Positions 2,926 to 9,518 of a DNA stretch of 64,000 nucleotides are shown here, in pieces. This DNA is from Bacillota bacterium (GTDB lineage: Bacteria; Bacillota_I; Bacilli_A; Erysipelotrichales; Erysipelotrichaceae): contig JAHFCO010000001.1 of assembly GCA_023249475.1 (NCBI GenBank), forward strand, positions 62,001-126,000. The letters run 5' to 3'. Every line of letters starts with the position of its first letter. The stretch's first letter is position 1. The notes under the pieces were generated by a model. That model did not search any database, was not told the DNA's origin, and was given only the letters and a program-made list of their open reading frames with translations. A program made the position numbers and the translations under genes.

Positions 2926-2957
2926 AAAGAAGTGCGATCCCCTCAAAGGGATCGCAC
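2926..2957 (-). terminator. intrinsic terminator of the TrpA-like/PTS operon
   Basis: A perfect 10-bp stem GTGCGATCCC (2932-2941) / GGGATCGCAC (2948-2957) with a 6-nt loop. On the minus strand it is followed by TTCTTTATC, and it lies 22 bp past the stop of the TrpA-like gene. Confidence 0.8.
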
Positions 2958-2978
2958 CTGATTCATTCGATTACGAAT

Positions 2979-3680
2979 CTATTCGACAATCCTTGATGCT
3001 TTATCAGGATGAATCACTTCATCGAGATAGGCGAGGAGTGTCTCCCGATCGATGATCTTCTTCGTCAACTCACTCCCGATGATGGCGCCAACCTGGTGCG
3101 AGTGCACTTCATCGATGTCGGTTTTGCTTCTGAGGCCGAACCCGACATTGATTTCAATCTCGCTGGATCTACGGATTCGGGCGATGGTCGACGGATATTC
3201 CCTTCCTCGGTCTACCGATCCGGTTTGACCAAGCGAACTCATGACATAGGCGAAGACGTCGCAGTGTTTCAAGCGATGTTCGATTTCATCGTCGTTCAGC
3301 TTCTCATGAAACAATTGGATCGTTTTCGGGTGATCCTCGATCACGAGATCCGGGAGGATGAGGCCCTCATATCTTGAGGGTTCTTCAAGCAATGCATACT
3401 CTTCGATGGCATCGCCATATGCCATGACAATGCGTCGTAGATACGGATATCTCACCTTTAGCTCATCCATCACTTGGATGTACCTTGCCTTACAAAACCC
3501 TTGGCTCAGAACGAATGCGTGGCTTTGGGCGATGGTCGGACCATCCAGGAAGGGATTTGGCGAGGGAATCCCGAACTCGATCGTATCGACCCCACGACGA
3601 ACCAATTCATCGACGGTTTCGAAGAATACCTTCGGGGTAGGATAATCGATCAAAAGATAGAAGACAAGATCTGAAGACAT
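2979..3680 (-). CDS. TrpA-family (tryptophan synthase alpha-like) TIM-barrel enzyme in a PTS operon
   Basis: A 233-residue TIM barrel of the tryptophan synthase alpha family. The TrpA active-site region is kept: 'IEFGIPSPNPFLDGPTI' carries the equivalents of the catalytic Glu (E35 here) and Asp (D46), and a phosphate-binding 'VGFGLRSKTDIDEV' follows near residue 180. True TrpA cleaves indole-3-glycerol phosphate and works with TrpB. No trpB or other trp gene is present, and this gene is translationally coupled (TAATG overlap) to a PTS permease. I infer a retro-aldol or isomerisation step on the phosphorylated sugar delivered by that PTS; this is not proven. At 233 residues it is slightly shorter than normal TrpA (about 260-270). 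Confidence 0.8.
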   Translation of the reverse strand: MSSDLVFYLLIDYPTPKVFFETVDELVRRGVDTIEFGIPSPNPFLDGPTIAQSHAFVLSQGFCKARYIQVMDELKVRYPYLRRIVMAYGDAIEEYALLEEPSRYEGLILPDLVIEDHPKTIQLFHEKLNDDEIEHRLKHCDVFAYVMSSLGQTGSVDRGREYPSTIARIRRSSEIEINVGFGLRSKTDIDEVHSHQVGAIIGSELTKKIIDRETLLAYLDEVIHPDKASRIVE

Positions 3681-4954
3681 TAACCGAAGTACCCGAACAA
3701 CAAGCCGAGGATCGGTCCATAGAACGCATAGTCGGTTTCACAAAGGACGCGCATGACCGGTTCGAACCCTCCGATGTATTGGATCAAGAACGCTTGGCCG
3801 AAGATGAGGATCAACCCGTTGACGAACGAACCGATGATGGCGCCTCTGCGCCCTCCGGTGGAGTTGCCATAGATCGCGGTAACCGCTCCGGTAAAGAAGA
3901 CGGGGATCAAGGCGGGGAAGACGACGACGGGGAACTTGACCAAACCGAGGATGACCATGCCCAGGATGTTTGCGGTTAGGCAAGAGAGGAATCCGACGAT
4001 GACGGAGGTCGGGTGGGCGGGGAATAAAATCGGAACGTCCAAGCCCGCTTTCGCATTGGGGACCAGTTTCTCCGAAATGCCATGGAAAGCCGGCACGATT
4101 TCCGCCAACATCATCCGGACACCGGTGACGATGATGGTGATCCAAACGCCAAACGTAATCCCGTTCAAGATCGAGAAAGAAAGCAAGTCGCGACCGCCGC
4201 TGACTTTTTCAAGGACGAAGGCGTTCCCCGCCAACAATGCGGCGACCAGGAACAGTAATCCCATGATGACGGTCAATGCGATGCTCATTTCACGAAGGAA
4301 GGATAGTTTCTTGGGAAGTTTGATTTCTTCCAGGTTGTTCTTGGGATTCCCGACGATCCCGCCGAGTTTCGAAGCGATCCAGCATCCGATGGAACTGGAA
4401 TGGGCGATCGTGAATCCTTCGCCTCCAGGGACTTTCTGCGTGATCGGCGCCATGTAGGCGCAGGTCAATGTCAGGTAAACACCCAGGATCACCGAGCCGA
4501 CGGAAACGACGACCGTGGTGTCCCAACTCGTCATCGTGGTCAAGACCGCGGCGATCATCCCGGCGTAGAAGAAGGAAACGTGGGCCGACAGGTGGATGTA
4601 TTTAAACGGGGTGAACCTGGCCATCAGAAGATTGATCGCGAAACCGCCGATGAAAATCAACGCCATCGGGAGACCGATGTTCGCGAGACTCGCACCGATC
4701 GCGCCGCCGATATCCATCGGAACGATCGGCATCCCGAAGATTTTCTGCAACATCAGTTGCAGGGGGGCAAGCGCCATCCCAAGGTTCTGCGCGGCGGTGT
4801 TGATGATGGTGAAGCCCAACATCGTTTTCACCGTGCCGCTGATGACTTTATCAAAACTCTTCTTTTGCAGAAGGAGTCCGATGCATACGAAGATACCGAT
4901 CAAGAACGTCGCTTCACTGAAAATGCGCGTAATCAAATACATTAAGATTTCCAT
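3680..4954 (-). CDS. PTS EIIC permease, SgaT/UlaA (ascorbate-galactitol) superfamily
   Basis: A 424-residue polytopic membrane protein (about 10-12 hydrophobic segments) with the SgaT/UlaA-type N-terminus 'GIFVCIGLLLQKKSFDKVISGTVKT', the internal 'EGFTIAHSSSIGCWIASKLGG', and a C-terminal 'ILFPAHPTSVIVGFLSCL'. It is the translocating subunit and phosphorylates its substrate during uptake together with the EIIB and EIIA encoded upstream. The substrate need not be ascorbate: no UlaG or UlaD gene is here, and the true ula genes lie at 30-32 and 49-53 kb. It overlaps the TrpA-like gene by one base (TAATG) and has a clear AGGAGGGG ribosome site. EIIA, EIIB, EIIC and the TrpA-like protein form one operon behind the PRD regulator. 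Confidence 0.9.
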   Translation of the reverse strand: MEILMYLITRIFSEATFLIGIFVCIGLLLQKKSFDKVISGTVKTMLGFTIINTAAQNLGMALAPLQLMLQKIFGMPIVPMDIGGAIGASLANIGLPMALIFIGGFAINLLMARFTPFKYIHLSAHVSFFYAGMIAAVLTTMTSWDTTVVVSVGSVILGVYLTLTCAYMAPITQKVPGGEGFTIAHSSSIGCWIASKLGGIVGNPKNNLEEIKLPKKLSFLREMSIALTVIMGLLFLVAALLAGNAFVLEKVSGGRDLLSFSILNGITFGVWITIIVTGVRMMLAEIVPAFHGISEKLVPNAKAGLDVPILFPAHPTSVIVGFLSCLTANILGMVILGLVKFPVVVFPALIPVFFTGAVTAIYGNSTGGRRGAIIGSFVNGLILIFGQAFLIQYIGGFEPVMRVLCETDYAFYGPILGLLFGYFG

Positions 4955-4963
4955 TTGCCCCTC

Positions 4964-5245
4964 CTATTGAGCTTTCTCTTGAATTTTCGCTAGTAATGCC
5001 AACCGTAAGCCGACTTTATCCGTTAAATTGTCGATTCGTATGATCTTCTCATCGGCGCCTCGAATCACATCCGCGATATCCGATGTCGTAATGATCCAAT
5101 CCGCACTCTTCGGGTCGACCGATGCGACATCCGCCGCTTCGATATTCGCTTCGATTCCTTCTTTATCAAGGATTTGTTGGGCGAAAAGCCGTAGCATCAT
5201 GCTTGTTCCGACCCCCGCTCCGCAAACCGTAAGGATTTTAACCAT
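4964..5245 (-). CDS. PTS EIIB, SgaB/UlaB family
   Basis: This 93-residue cytosolic PTS component has the phosphocysteine loop 'ILTVCGAGVGTSMM' at the N-terminus; C8 is the residue phosphorylated by EIIA. The pattern C-x-x-G-x-G-T/S-S is characteristic of galactitol/ascorbate-type IIB proteins. It passes the phosphoryl group to the sugar bound by the EIIC at 3680-4954. It lies 9 bp upstream of EIIC and 10 bp downstream of EIIA, so all three subunits should be made together. Confidence 0.92.
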   Translation of the reverse strand: MVKILTVCGAGVGTSMMLRLFAQQILDKEGIEANIEAADVASVDPKSADWIITTSDIADVIRGADEKIIRIDNLTDKVGLRLALLAKIQEKAQ

Positions 5246-5255
5246 GTTTCCTCCC

Positions 5256-5690
5256 TTAGAGCATGTCGTAGATCAACTTCGGATCACGCTCAGCCAGAAT
5301 GGACTCCAGCTTCGCTTCATCCCCGAAGATGTCCGCGATATCGCTCAATGCTTCAAGATGCTTCGTATTGTCTTTTGCGGCGAGACAGATGATGAGCCGT
5401 ACCGGATCGTTTTGACGATGTCCGAAGACGACCGGTTCTTTCAATGTCATCAATGCGATCGAAGTATGGATGACGCCTTCTTCGGGACGGGCGTGGGGCA
5501 TCGCGATGCCGGGGGCGATCACGATGTACTGACCGAACTCCAAGACTTTAGCGATCATCGCATCGATGTACGTTGCTTCGATGTCGCCATGTTCGAGTAA
5601 TATCTTCCCTGCGAGCCGAATGGATTCCTGCCATGTTTTCGCATCGACTTTCGTCCGGATCCGACTTTGACTTGTAATCTCTTGAATCAT
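5256..5690 (-). CDS. PTS EIIA, fructose/mannitol (PTS_EIIA type 2) family
   Basis: A 144-residue EIIA with the active-site segment 'IVIAPGIAMPHARPEEG'; H66 accepts phosphate from HPr and passes it to EIIB. I chose the ATG at 5690 because it forms an ATGA overlap with the stop of the regulator gene and lies 6 nt after GAGGG; the in-frame ATG at 5696 abuts that ribosome site. Its sequence is closer to the EIIA of SgaT-type systems (UlaC) than to glucose-type EIIA, which fits its partners. Confidence 0.92.
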   Translation of the reverse strand: MIQEITSQSRIRTKVDAKTWQESIRLAGKILLEHGDIEATYIDAMIAKVLEFGQYIVIAPGIAMPHARPEEGVIHTSIALMTLKEPVVFGHRQNDPVRLIICLAAKDNTKHLEALSDIADIFGDEAKLESILAERDPKLIYDML

Positions 5691-7780
5691 AACCATCCCT
5701 CTTTCATGATGACATCGTAGACTTCGGATGTCGTTAACTTGCGTAGACGATCCCTTGTTTTCTCAACCGACAGTAACTCGATCAGATGGGTTAGTGTGTT
5801 GACATGGGAAGTCTTGTCATATGGCGCCAACATGACCACGGTATCGATCGGACCGAACCGATGGTCGATTTCGAACCGTTGCTCCAGCAATGCGACAACG
5901 ATGGAAGCCTGCAGGACATTCCCGTCATTGTATGCATGCGGCATGGCGATTCCCGGCGCGATCATGATCCATCCTGGATGTTCATCATAATGGGCCTTCA
6001 ACTGGCGGATATATTCCGGACGGATCCGGTCTGACGCTAGAAGGGGTTGTGCGCACTCCTCGATGAGCCCTTCCAGATTCATACTTCTCTGAATCTTCAC
6101 GATCCCTTGGGGGAACAAGATCGACGGAACCGCTCCCCGTCCGTTCCCGGCTTTATGTTTGTTGGTTTGTTTTGAGAACCGAACACTCACTTCATTCATG
6201 ATGCGTGCGGCCGTCTCCTGATCCGTGACTTGGTTGACGATCGCCGCGAACTCTTCGAGAATCCCGTTATTTTCGTCGAACTCATCCGTCTTCCTGCGAG
6301 GCAGGACTTCACTCAGCTTCTTGATGTCGACATCGCTAAGCAACGGCGTGACTTCGCTCATTCTCATCCCGACGGACTTCAACGGCACGGTCGTAACGAT
6401 GTGGTCGAACTCCAGTTTCTGTAAACACTCGTTCACCCTTGATTTCGAAACGATATCCACGATTTCGTATCCTTCGAAGAAATAGGAGAGACGTGAAGCC
6501 AGCAACTGCGACGTCCCGACCCCGCTTGAACATACCAGCAGAATCCGAACGTTCCCGTGGGCCGAACTTGACTCCGACGGGAGGTTCGCCGCGAAATGCA
6601 TCGCGATATAACAGAGTTCGTCATCGTTGAACGTCAACGCATGGTTGACCTCGATTTCCGAAATCGCGATCCGGACCGCTTCGAAAACAGGACCATGACT
6701 TAACTGGAATTTCGTTAACAATGGGTTTTCGACGGGCCGATCGACGCGGATCCTCTCGATCGCCGGGATGATGTGGAGCAGGAGCCCCTTCTTGATTTTC
6801 AGATGGTCAGGGAAGTTCAGGTTCAAGTTTTTTTCGACCCGACCGATCATTCTTTCGAGTTCTTCATCCAGTTCCGGGTGGTTCTGAGTCGACTCGTCCT
6901 TTTCACGATACGCAACCGATGCGCCAAGGAGGTGATAGGTAAGGTAGGCGGTCTCGGATTCGGTGAACGTCACGTTGAATTTCTTTGAAAGCAAGCACGC
7001 GAGTTCGACGGCATCTTGATATTCGCCTTTAGCCTTGATTCTATATAGTTCCGTCTCGTTGATCTCGATCACTTTGTCTTCACGAATCCGCTGAATGGCC
7101 AATACGATATGGATCAGAATATTGATGTAGCTTTCGACGGAGAACTCGAAATGCTGCGTTTCTTGCAGACGATCGATTTGCCTTCTCGCTTCATCCACCA
7201 TCTCTTCGTCCATCATCGACTTCAACGATTCGATTCTTTCATCCAGATCGTCGTAATGCGTCAACGCTTGTTTCTTTGACGACTCGCGGATACAGTCGAG
7301 ATAGGCTCTGCGCTTAAAGTTCTCATCTCCAAGAACGGAGAGAAACGACTGATTCCGTTCGAGTTTCAATCCGTATTTCTCAAGCCGTTTGGATATCGGT
7401 TTGATGTTGGCGATGACGGTCGAGAAACTCACATTCAAGGTTTTTGCGAGTGTGTGGGCCGAGATCCTGCCTTTTTTTAGAATCAGACGCGTCATCGCGT
7501 CGGTTCGCGCGTCGGGGAACTCATCCATCGTTTTTTGATTCTCCCGTTTCAGTTCACCGACCAACCGATCTTTGTCGAGTCGCGGATGCATTCCGACGAT
7601 CGCATTCGATCGTTCCAGGGTGGGTAAACCCTTCTCTCCCAACCAAGCATCGATGATCGGCAAGTCGTTGCGAATCGTTCGCTGCGAACACGCCAGGTTC
7701 CTCGCCAAGGACGCGACACTGTGAAAAGAGTTGTCATGCATCAAAATCTTGATCAACTCGATTTTCCGACGGTCCAACAT
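5687..7780 (-). CDS. PRD-containing transcriptional regulator with EIIB- and EIIA-like domains (BglG/LicR/MtlR type)
   Basis: A 697-residue activator of the LicR/MtlR class. Order: two helix-turn-helix regions (about 1-70, with 'SVASLARNLACSQRTIRNDL', and about 95-150), two PTS regulatory domains (about 190-300 and 310-400; 'HIVLAIQRIRED' and 'LLLHIIPAIERIR'), an EIIB-like domain with 'ILLVCSSGVGTSQ', and a C-terminal EIIA-like domain with 'IAPGIAMPHAYNDG'. Phosphorylation of PRD histidines, the EIIB cysteine and the EIIA histidine by PTS proteins tunes activity in this family. It is the first gene of the PTS operon and overlaps EIIA (ATGA), so it most likely activates its own operon when the substrate is being transported. 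Confidence 0.93.
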   Translation of the reverse strand: MLDRRKIELIKILMHDNSFHSVASLARNLACSQRTIRNDLPIIDAWLGEKGLPTLERSNAIVGMHPRLDKDRLVGELKRENQKTMDEFPDARTDAMTRLILKKGRISAHTLAKTLNVSFSTVIANIKPISKRLEKYGLKLERNQSFLSVLGDENFKRRAYLDCIRESSKKQALTHYDDLDERIESLKSMMDEEMVDEARRQIDRLQETQHFEFSVESYINILIHIVLAIQRIREDKVIEINETELYRIKAKGEYQDAVELACLLSKKFNVTFTESETAYLTYHLLGASVAYREKDESTQNHPELDEELERMIGRVEKNLNLNFPDHLKIKKGLLLHIIPAIERIRVDRPVENPLLTKFQLSHGPVFEAVRIAISEIEVNHALTFNDDELCYIAMHFAANLPSESSSAHGNVRILLVCSSGVGTSQLLASRLSYFFEGYEIVDIVSKSRVNECLQKLEFDHIVTTVPLKSVGMRMSEVTPLLSDVDIKKLSEVLPRRKTDEFDENNGILEEFAAIVNQVTDQETAARIMNEVSVRFSKQTNKHKAGNGRGAVPSILFPQGIVKIQRSMNLEGLIEECAQPLLASDRIRPEYIRQLKAHYDEHPGWIMIAPGIAMPHAYNDGNVLQASIVVALLEQRFEIDHRFGPIDTVVMLAPYDKTSHVNTLTHLIELLSVEKTRDRLRKLTTSEVYDVIMKEGWL

Positions 7781-7892
7781 CCTTTCACCCGCTTTCTTCC
7801 TTTGTCCAAAATATACCTATTTTCGGGATGAATCACAAGAGAACTCCGTCAATCCGTTGATATTGTTTTTCCATCATCGTGTGAATTCGCAT

Positions 7893-7922
7893 AACAAAAG
7901 CAAGGGGCGACCCTTGCTTGAT
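7893..7922 (-). terminator. intrinsic terminator after the 7929 gene
   Basis: A 9-bp stem AAGCAAGGG (7898-7906) / CCCTTGCTT (7911-7919) lies just past the stop; the minus strand continues with TTTTG. The T-tract is short but the position is right. Confidence 0.7.
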
Positions 7923-7928
7923 TTCATA

Positions 7929-8627
7929 TTAGACTAGATTGAGGATGTGTTTCTCGATCTTTTTCACGAATGTGACCAACGGGTCTTTCTCGCTTACTTG
8001 TGCCTTCGCATCGATCTCACGGATCAGATCCAAGGGGGTACGGACCCAGACGGCGATGGAGAGGGAGACCAGGAATTCATGGGGGTCTTCGGAGTTCATG
8101 TAGGACTCGTCGAACTTCTTGATGAATTCTTGCACGTCGATGATCGACCGGTATTTCGTCAGTGAATCGATGAAGGCTTCGTTCTCGCGGCTGTAGTGTT
8201 TCCCTGCGAATTCATCGAACAGTTGGACCAAGGTGTCTTTGTCCGTACTGTGGACATGAAGGTCGAAGATATACTTGCCCCAGGGGTTGGAGATCTTCAA
8301 TGTCGGTAGGACCTGGACATAGAGCTTGTAGCCATCGATATTGATGGATTTGGTCCGCAGGATGTCCATCGCGTAATCTCCGCGATAGAGGTCGTTCCCC
8401 TGTTCTTTATTGTTGGCGAGGTAGAAACGCAAGTCCAGATTATAGTCGTAGTTGATGAACGCAAACTCGCGGGTGAAGGGTTTATCCACGATCCCGACCC
8501 AATAGACGGGGTCCCCTTTTTCCGTGCGTTTGTTGATGTGTTCGCCGTTGCCATGATAATTGAATGCGAAACGTTCAATCCGATGAATGATTTCTTCTTT
8601 CGTCGTCAGCGTTTGGCGAATGTCCAT
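7929..8627 (-). CDS. conserved-looking cytosolic protein of unknown function
   Basis: This 232-residue soluble protein has no signal peptide or membrane segment and no domain I recognise. It is rich in charged and aromatic residues ('REFAFINYDYNLDLRFYLANN', 'KYIFDLHVHSTDKDTLVQLF'). I start it at the ATG at 8627, 7 nt after GGAGG; the upstream in-frame ATG at 8660 has no ribosome site. It follows the PHP phosphatase gene in the same direction with a 51-bp gap and may be co-transcribed, but nothing ties the two functionally. Confidence 0.8.
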   Translation of the reverse strand: MDIRQTLTTKEEIIHRIERFAFNYHGNGEHINKRTEKGDPVYWVGIVDKPFTREFAFINYDYNLDLRFYLANNKEQGNDLYRGDYAMDILRTKSINIDGYKLYVQVLPTLKISNPWGKYIFDLHVHSTDKDTLVQLFDEFAGKHYSRENEAFIDSLTKYRSIIDVQEFIKKFDESYMNSEDPHEFLVSLSIAVWVRTPLDLIREIDAKAQVSEKDPLVTFVKKIEKHILNLV

Positions 8628-8678
8628 GATTCTTTCCTCCGTGTTGACTTCATTATACACAAGGAGAGAGCGAATTGC

Positions 8679-9518
8679 TTATTCCAGCACGATTTCCAAC
8701 GATTCCAGTCCCGATTCTTTTTCTCTGCGCATCAAGCGGTGGAAGGTCGGGATCATTTTGTCATAGGTGCAGAAAGAATCAAAGCCAAGATCCAGGAGGA
8801 TCTCCGTCACTTTATCGAAATGTTCGGCCAGATCGGATTTCTTGTGGCTGTCGGAACCCAGGGTCAGGATCTTCCCTCCCAATTCGCGATACCAGGTCAG
8901 GATTTGGCGCGAGGGGGTCAAATCCGGTAGATTGTAGCGGTAACTCGACGTGTTCACTTCGATCCCCTTACCGTCCGAAATGACTTGTCGCAGGACCTTC
9001 TTGATGATTTCTTCGAGTTCTTTATCGTCGAGGATCCCTTGCCGGTCATAGCGTTTGATGACATCCAGATGACCCAGGACGCTGTAGTCCTTGTATTCCG
9101 TGATGACATCCAGGATCGCTTGGTAATACCCGTGGTTGTACTCGAGTTGCGTCTTCCCTTCCTGATACTCGTTCATCCAGAATTCCCGGTCGTCGATCTG
9201 ATGGCTGGACAGAAGGATGAAATCGAAGGGGTAGGCGGCGAAATCCCGATGATAGTTCTCGATCGTATGACGTTGGAGGGCGAATTCCGCCCCGAACTTC
9301 AATCGGATTTGATGCTTATATTTTTCCTTGAAATCGGAAAGGGTTTGGTAGTAGCGTGGAAGATCGGTCAAATGCGACGGCTTCTTCACAAGGTAATCGT
9401 GATGTTCCGTGAAGCATACTTCGTCGATCCCTAATCGAATCGCTTCCAGGATGCTTTCTTCCATGTCTTGTCTGGAATCATCCGAGAAACTGGTATGGGT
9501 ATGATAATCTGCGAACAT
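8679..9518 (-). CDS. PHP-domain histidinol-phosphatase-like phosphoesterase (HisK/HisJ family)
   Basis: A 279-residue PHP-family metal-dependent phosphoesterase. The metal-binding motifs appear in order: 'DYHTHTSFSDDS' (I), 'FTEHHDY' (II), 'LLSSHQID' (III), 'LGHLDVIKRY', and 'TLGSDSHKK' (IV). The family dephosphorylates L-histidinol phosphate, and members outside his operons can act on other small phosphoesters. No other histidine-biosynthesis gene is in the window, so the physiological substrate is uncertain. The start has AGGAGG 8 nt upstream of ATG. Confidence 0.88.
   Translation of the reverse strand: MFADYHTHTSFSDDSRQDMEESILEAIRLGIDEVCFTEHHDYLVKKPSHLTDLPRYYQTLSDFKEKYKHQIRLKFGAEFALQRHTIENYHRDFAAYPFDFILLSSHQIDDREFWMNEYQEGKTQLEYNHGYYQAILDVITEYKDYSVLGHLDVIKRYDRQGILDDKELEEIIKKVLRQVISDGKGIEVNTSSYRYNLPDLTPSRQILTWYRELGGKILTLGSDSHKKSDLAEHFDKVTEILLDLGFDSFCTYDKMIPTFHRLMRREKESGLESLEIVLE

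Follow-up and report, generated by a model that had tools for sequence, protein, structure and literature searches.

Organization of the operon

The window analyzed here is a stretch of 64,000 nucleotides from the genome of an uncultured, gut-type member of the Erysipelotrichaceae (contig JAHFCO010000001.1). Its minus strand carries, between positions 7780 and 2979, five genes arranged head to tail that encode a PRD regulator, the PTS components EIIA and EIIB, an SgaT-type EIIC and a homologue of TrpA (Table 1). TrpA is a textbook biosynthetic enzyme that is normally paired with TrpB, and the TrpA-like protein is the sole enzyme of this operon besides the PTS parts and the regulator. Trp_syntA (PF00290) is its only Pfam match, with 92.8 bits (E 2e-26). 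Its ATG shares one base with the stop codon of the EIIC gene (TAATG), which agrees with the coupling to EIIC described in the initial annotation. Promoter-like sites of the operon region were not more frequent than in shuffled sequence.

Table 1. Features of the operon, residues of the TrpA-like protein and loci of the second orphan clade (positions refer to the window or, for the second clade, to the respective locus).
Feature	Position	Strand	Basis
PTS-controlled transcription regulator, 697 aa	5687..7780	-	Pfam: HTH, two PRD, EIIB-like and EIIA domains
EIIA, 146 aa	5256..5696	-	PF00359 (PTS_EIIA_2)
EIIB, 93 aa	4964..5245	-	PF02302 (PTS_IIB)
SgaT/UlaA-type EIIC permease (EIIC-GAT), 424 aa	3680..4954	-	PF03611, 354 bits
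TrpA-like protein of 233 aa, a (beta/alpha)8 barrel encoded at the end of the operon	2979..3680	-	PF00290
Codon of E35, equivalent of catalytic Glu49 of TrpA	3576..3578	-	Alignments
Codon of D46, equivalent of catalytic Asp60 of TrpA	3543..3545	-	Alignments
Short loop replacing TrpA helix a4, residues 109-119	3324..3356	-	Alignment gap of 11 residues and structure models
Codons of T153-G154, equivalent of T183-G184, loop 6/phosphate side	3219..3224	-	Alignment
Codons of G180-F181-G182, equivalent of G211-F212-G213, phosphate site and pocket	3135..3143	-	Alignment
Codons of G202-S203, equivalent of G234-S235, phosphate site	3072..3077	-	Alignment
Putative terminator-like hairpin, 13 pairs, directly after the TrpA-like gene	2930..2959	-	Consensus match
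Second-clade protein, L122	8886-9617		
Second-clade protein, L124	8601-9317		
Second-clade protein, L125	8677-9423		
Second-clade protein, L127	3743-4474		
Second-clade proteins, L156, L157, L159-L162, L074			

Recurrence of the gene order

The five-gene order was found at three places: in the window, in the Erysipelotrichia MAG CROMO_A_155 (G079) and in Jeotgalibaca sp. MA1X17-3 from Antarctic sediment, where it lies on a plasmid. In all three loci the TrpA-like gene is the last one, overlaps the EIIC gene and encodes the only enzyme of the operon. Because the order recurs in G079 and Jeotgalibaca, the combination of a TrpA-like gene with these PTS genes is not due to chance. Between the window and G079, which represent two genera, the EIICs (3680-4954 in the window, 1754-3031 in L034) are 90% identical, the TrpA-like proteins 54% and the operon genes other than EIIC altogether 47-74%. 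As the four-fold synonymous sites of this pair are saturated in every gene, the high identity of the EIICs reflects strong constraint and not recent transfer. Relative to the other operon genes, this constraint on the transporter is unusually strong. Beyond the operon, the G079 locus also carries the C-terminal part of a phosphopentomutase-like metalloenzyme (L034 472-963), for which the listed ORF lacks the N-terminal part.

In the plasmid copy the TrpA-like protein is 33% and the EIIC 57% identical; the remaining plasmid-borne EIICs reach at most 40% identity to the EIIC of the window among the matches listed. The frames of the Jeotgalibaca regulator (L083 5397-7432) and EIIC (7748-8998) are broken near homopolymer runs and look frameshifted, which could stem from errors in sequencing or from genuine decay, and the frame of the TrpA-like gene is intact. 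The SgaT-linked family is rare within the genomes searched. Window and profile searches of about 780 genomes of the class matched only the genome of the window (G000) and G079, and a contig search of 84,980 species returned only G079, though its patterns were too narrow to catch the Jeotgalibaca type. No family members were found in the viral contigs searched, and among plasmids only Jeotgalibaca scored above the level of true TrpA.

Missing trp pathway and phylogenetic position

The initial annotation had noted that no other trp gene is present, and this holds for the whole genome (2.09 Mb in 60 contigs, 96% complete). The 233-aa protein is its one PF00290 match, and no TrpB was detected, with both PF00291 matches being CysK (cysteine synthase) and threonine synthase. 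Likewise, no TrpC (indole-glycerol phosphate synthase) was found; the best match in this genome is weak (20.7 bits, under the cut-off) and belongs to a tRNA-dihydrouridine synthase. Given the completeness of 96%, the evidence for the absence of TrpB and TrpC is strong but not absolute. In G079, a genome of the same family with 99% completeness, TrpC was not found and neither was TrpB, as the sole PF00291 match falls over a cysteine-synthase-like (CysK-like) gene. At a locus of G000 unlinked to the operon (L186 921-2909), we observed an HPS-like barrel (PF00215) and a SIS protein together with a DeoR-type regulator and a uroporphyrinogen-decarboxylase-like gene.

To place the protein, a tree was calculated from the three SgaT-linked proteins, 23 biosynthetic TrpAs from five phyla and ten other orphan TrpA-like proteins. 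The SgaT-linked proteins form one clade with a support of 99/98, and the 23 TrpAs lie on the other side of a branch supported by 94/90, or by 100/100 without the second orphan clade; the tree is unrooted with long branches, and it does not fix how the two orphan clades are related. The initial annotation had proposed to check whether such proteins group separately from biosynthetic TrpA, and had named an orphan trpB combined with clustering inside true TrpA as the result that would speak against its interpretation; we found no trpB and a separate clade. Among the gathered loci, TrpAs with more than 130 bits against E. coli TrpA adjoin TrpB, with the single exception of L015, which starts at a contig end.

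The PF00290 match with both acids might also be explained by a misplaced biosynthetic TrpA, or by one in decay since a trp operon was lost, and degenerate TrpAs do occur in relatives. However, the separate clade, the lack of TrpB and TrpC, the identical linkage at three loci and a score of 76.9 bits against the trpA equivalog TIGR00262, below its cut-off of 102.35, already contradict such an origin. In addition, the active site is kept and the TrpB surface is changed, which is the reverse of decayed TrpAs that adjoin TrpB and have lost the site. We therefore regard a misplaced or decaying TrpA as very improbable.

Active site, pocket and lost elements of the TrpA-like protein

All three members have both active-site acids, as the initial annotation stated for the protein of the window, with E35 and D46 corresponding to E49 and D60 (E. 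coli TrpA numbering is used for residue comparisons). In recent work on TrpA and BX1, the exchanges E49D and D60N/A/Y are reported to abolish activity, and both acids are essential in TrpA (PMC12930369). In detail, E49, D60, Y102, Y175, S178, T183, G184, G211, F212, G213 and G234 are kept in all three SgaT-linked proteins, and S235 in two of them (S/S/T). All three proteins share the consensus residue of TrpA at 13 of the 19 functional positions and at 19 of the 197 others (p 2e-8, to be taken as a guide only, as the sequences are related). If the protein bound the sugar phosphate as a non-catalytic sensor or regulator, it would retain the ligand-site residues too, and nothing speaks directly for such a role. 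We consider this role highly unlikely, since both catalytic acids are present in all three proteins and the operon already has a full PTS regulator.

The pocket is as hydrophobic as that of TrpA, and at positions 22, 100, 102, 127, 129, 153, 175, 212 and 232 it holds residues that are also seen in biosynthetic TrpA. Phe22 was discarded as an invariant TrpA residue, because 8 of the 23 TrpAs have Tyr. The loss of indole-binding residues predicted in the initial annotation was thus not borne out, as all positions of the first shell but one are occupied by residues known from TrpA; what has been lost instead is the TrpB-contact surface and two helices. On the TrpB-contact side F54 is replaced by S/V, S55 by P/K/Q, D56 by N, N104 by D/E and P132 by V/L. 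Furthermore, the N-terminal helix a0 is absent from the SgaT-linked proteins, a3 is shortened and a4 is missing.

An AlphaFold2 model of the 233-aa protein (mean pLDDT 87.6, pTM 0.86) has a loop at residues 109-119. In a control model calculated without TrpA rows, the elements follow one another as before except for strand b4, which was unassigned, and the loop at 109-119 is seen as well, both at low confidence (pLDDT 63.7). The model matches the TrpA structure 3cep with a Z of 25.6 over 225 of the 233 residues and maize BX1, a solved stand-alone relative of TrpA, with a Z of 24.8. It is conceivable that the protein works alone as a lyase of the BX1/IGL type, with an aromatic or indole-like glycerol compound phosphorylated by the PTS as its substrate, and such an activity on an aromatic substrate suits the TrpA-like pocket better. 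It suits the transporter worse, as the PTS permeases of the EIIC-GAT family have sugars and polyols as their known substrates and are not known to import aromatics. Neither an indole-using gene in the operon nor a TrpC in the genome to supply indole-3-glycerol phosphate was found, and we rate this function as improbable.

The transporter and the slot after EIIC

The EIIC of the window exceeds the cut-off of NCBIfam NF006919 (409.5 bits over 380), but the label “ascorbate” of this family should not be read as its substrate. A comparison with the ascorbate contacts reported for UlaA (PMC6048161) revealed that the three EIICs keep H135, H194 and D314, plus R288. In place of T86, Y87, Q139 and Q195 they carry I, G, F and S, respectively, and in place of M410 an E. 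This pattern is the same in all three except for position 59 and unlike that of seven other EIICs compared. Ascorbate was rejected as the PTS substrate, as the EIIC lacks these specific contacts and the operon lacks the ula enzymes; judged by its sequence, the system probably imports another compound.

In other SgaT-type operons, the slot directly after EIIC is occupied by various enzymes. In Klebsiella, alsE follows EIIA-EIIB-EIIC, in Listeria a phosphotriesterase gene is followed by creatininase, KDGP aldolase and SIS isomerase genes, and in Niallia transketolase halves were found. In Erysipelotrichales and relatives we observed transketolase halves and, named by sequence look without a domain scan, apparent SIS isomerases, a phosphotriesterase and aldolase/epimerase barrels. 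The slot takes various sugar-phosphate enzymes, and the TrpA-like protein would be one among them. The initial annotation described the TrpA-like enzyme as replacing a sugar lyase; no such replacement emerged from these comparisons.

The layout with one enzyme after EIIC, which is the same in Klebsiella, fits an isomerase or epimerase as well as a lyase. E35 and D46 would then move a proton back and forth on a ketose phosphate, yielding a normal intermediate of glycolysis or the pentose-phosphate pathway, as AlsE does in Klebsiella, and proton transfer on sugar phosphates is common among phosphate-binding barrels. The retained TrpA active site with its hydrophobic pocket argues against this reaction, which we consider unlikely, if still the most plausible of the alternatives.

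Proposed function

At present we tentatively favor, at slightly less than even chances, a PTS catabolic operon in which a stand-alone enzyme of the TrpA line works on the phosphorylated product, most likely by a retro-aldol cleavage of the TrpA type. EIIA, EIIB and EIIC would import and phosphorylate a carbohydrate-like compound, with the phosphate placed on a terminal hydroxyl. This phosphate could sit in the conserved site formed by G180-F-G182, G202-S203 and T153-G154, where E35 would serve as general acid-base and D46 would stabilize the leaving half. The reaction would convert R-CHOH-CHOH-CH2-OPO3 to R-H and glyceraldehyde-3-phosphate, and as the latter is a glycolytic intermediate, one enzyme would suffice. 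The regulator might turn the operon on according to the phosphorylation state of its own PTS domains. The order of the genes, the kept active-site residues, the lack of TrpB and TrpC, the clade of its own and the loss of the TrpB surface are observed, and the action on the PTS product, the retro-aldol reaction, its products and the regulation are what we infer.

Several lines of evidence speak for the lyase: the constant position of the TrpA-like gene as the only enzyme gene at the end of three operons, overlapping EIIC; the conservation of active-site and pocket positions well beyond background, including the two essential acids; the lack of TrpB and TrpC in its own genome, with none found in G079, together with the changed TrpB side; and the frequent occurrence of sugar-phosphate enzymes after SgaT-type EIICs (alsE, transketolase, SIS isomerase, aldolase). 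On the other hand, TrpA relies on the indole ring as electron sink, for which a plain ketose phosphate offers no counterpart. A metal or a lysine as in usual aldolases was not identified in the protein, and the hydrophobic TrpA-like pocket suits a polar sugar poorly. The family is also known from no more than three loci, one of them with two frameshifted genes, and its TrpA-like protein evolves much faster than EIIC (54% against 90% between G000 and G079).

In sum, the interpretation given in the initial annotation gains from the separate clade and the missing trp pathway and loses its predicted change of the indole pocket. It is further supported by the slot after SgaT-type EIICs, which is often taken by a sugar-phosphate enzyme and once by a ribulose-phosphate-type epimerase (alsE), and retro-aldol cleavage of a sugar phosphate by the TrpA-like protein is possible. 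Our data suggest that a biosynthetic enzyme has been recruited for the degradation of a compound that is imported and phosphorylated. If true, this group, which lost TrpB, kept the active site and is tied to one transporter, would clearly exemplify a barrel that moved from biosynthesis to catabolism, and it might represent a novel type of phosphate-dependent lyase. An open-access literature search found no paper on a link between TrpA-like proteins and SgaT-type PTS.

A second clade of orphan TrpA-like proteins

Profile searches revealed 11 further orphan TrpA-like proteins of 238-249 aa at loci without TrpB (Table 1). Their neighbours, several of which were named by sequence, encode a mannose-type PTS, DeoR/GntR regulators, BtpA, an iron alcohol dehydrogenase, an ADP-ribosylglycohydrolase, or a nucleoside ABC transporter with a PfkB kinase and a nucleoside phosphorylase. 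This second clade is supported by 100/99, and its members have kept Glu49 and lost the T183-G184 motif. Taken together, the two groups suggest that catabolic TrpA-like barrels are more than an isolated oddity, and “trpA” annotations without trpB, further ones of which were seen here, may be catabolic enzymes. It is possible, if rather doubtful, that the TrpA barrel passed from the synthesis of amino acids to a catabolic use on two or more occasions, among them once for each of the two clades, giving sugar-phosphate lyases or isomerases that use the Glu/Asp pair of TrpA and neither a metal nor a Schiff base.

A different kind of TrpA was observed next to TrpB at four loci (L166 4889-5623, L167 4745-5554, L158 5370-6077, L168 5542-6234). 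These proteins lack most active-site motifs, E49 is replaced by I, M or V in three of the four, and they are possibly reduced to a non-catalytic partner of TrpB.

Comparison with known systems

With TrpA (PF00290) the TrpA-like protein shares the fold, both catalytic acids, the phosphate site and the pocket residues. It differs in its separate clade, the missing TrpB and TrpC, the loss of helices a0 and a4 with a shortened a3, the altered TrpB-contact residues and a score below the TIGR00262 cut-off. Maize BX1 and the indole-3-glycerol phosphate lyases are also TrpA relatives that work without TrpB, but they are plant defence enzymes acting on indole-3-glycerol phosphate, whereas the protein described here belongs to a bacterial PTS operon without indole-glycerol phosphate synthesis. 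The second orphan clade has PF00290 (in the two members scanned), the Glu49 equivalent and TrpB-less catabolic loci in common with the SgaT clade; in contrast to the latter, Asp60 is often E or G, T183-G184 is lost, Q177 and A178 are present and helix a4 is largely kept.

The ula operon of E. coli, which encodes the L-ascorbate PTS UlaABC and UlaD, has the same EIIC family, EIIA, EIIB and a barrel enzyme. However, the EIIC of the window is 27% identical and lacks the T86, Y87, Q139 and Q195 contacts, ulaG, ulaE and ulaF are missing from the operon, and the barrel is TrpA-like rather than UlaD. Similar in layout is the SgaT-type PTS of Klebsiella, where likewise one barrel enzyme stands directly after EIIC; there the enzyme is AlsE of the ribulose-phosphate-epimerase type, and the EIICs are 38% identical to that of the window.
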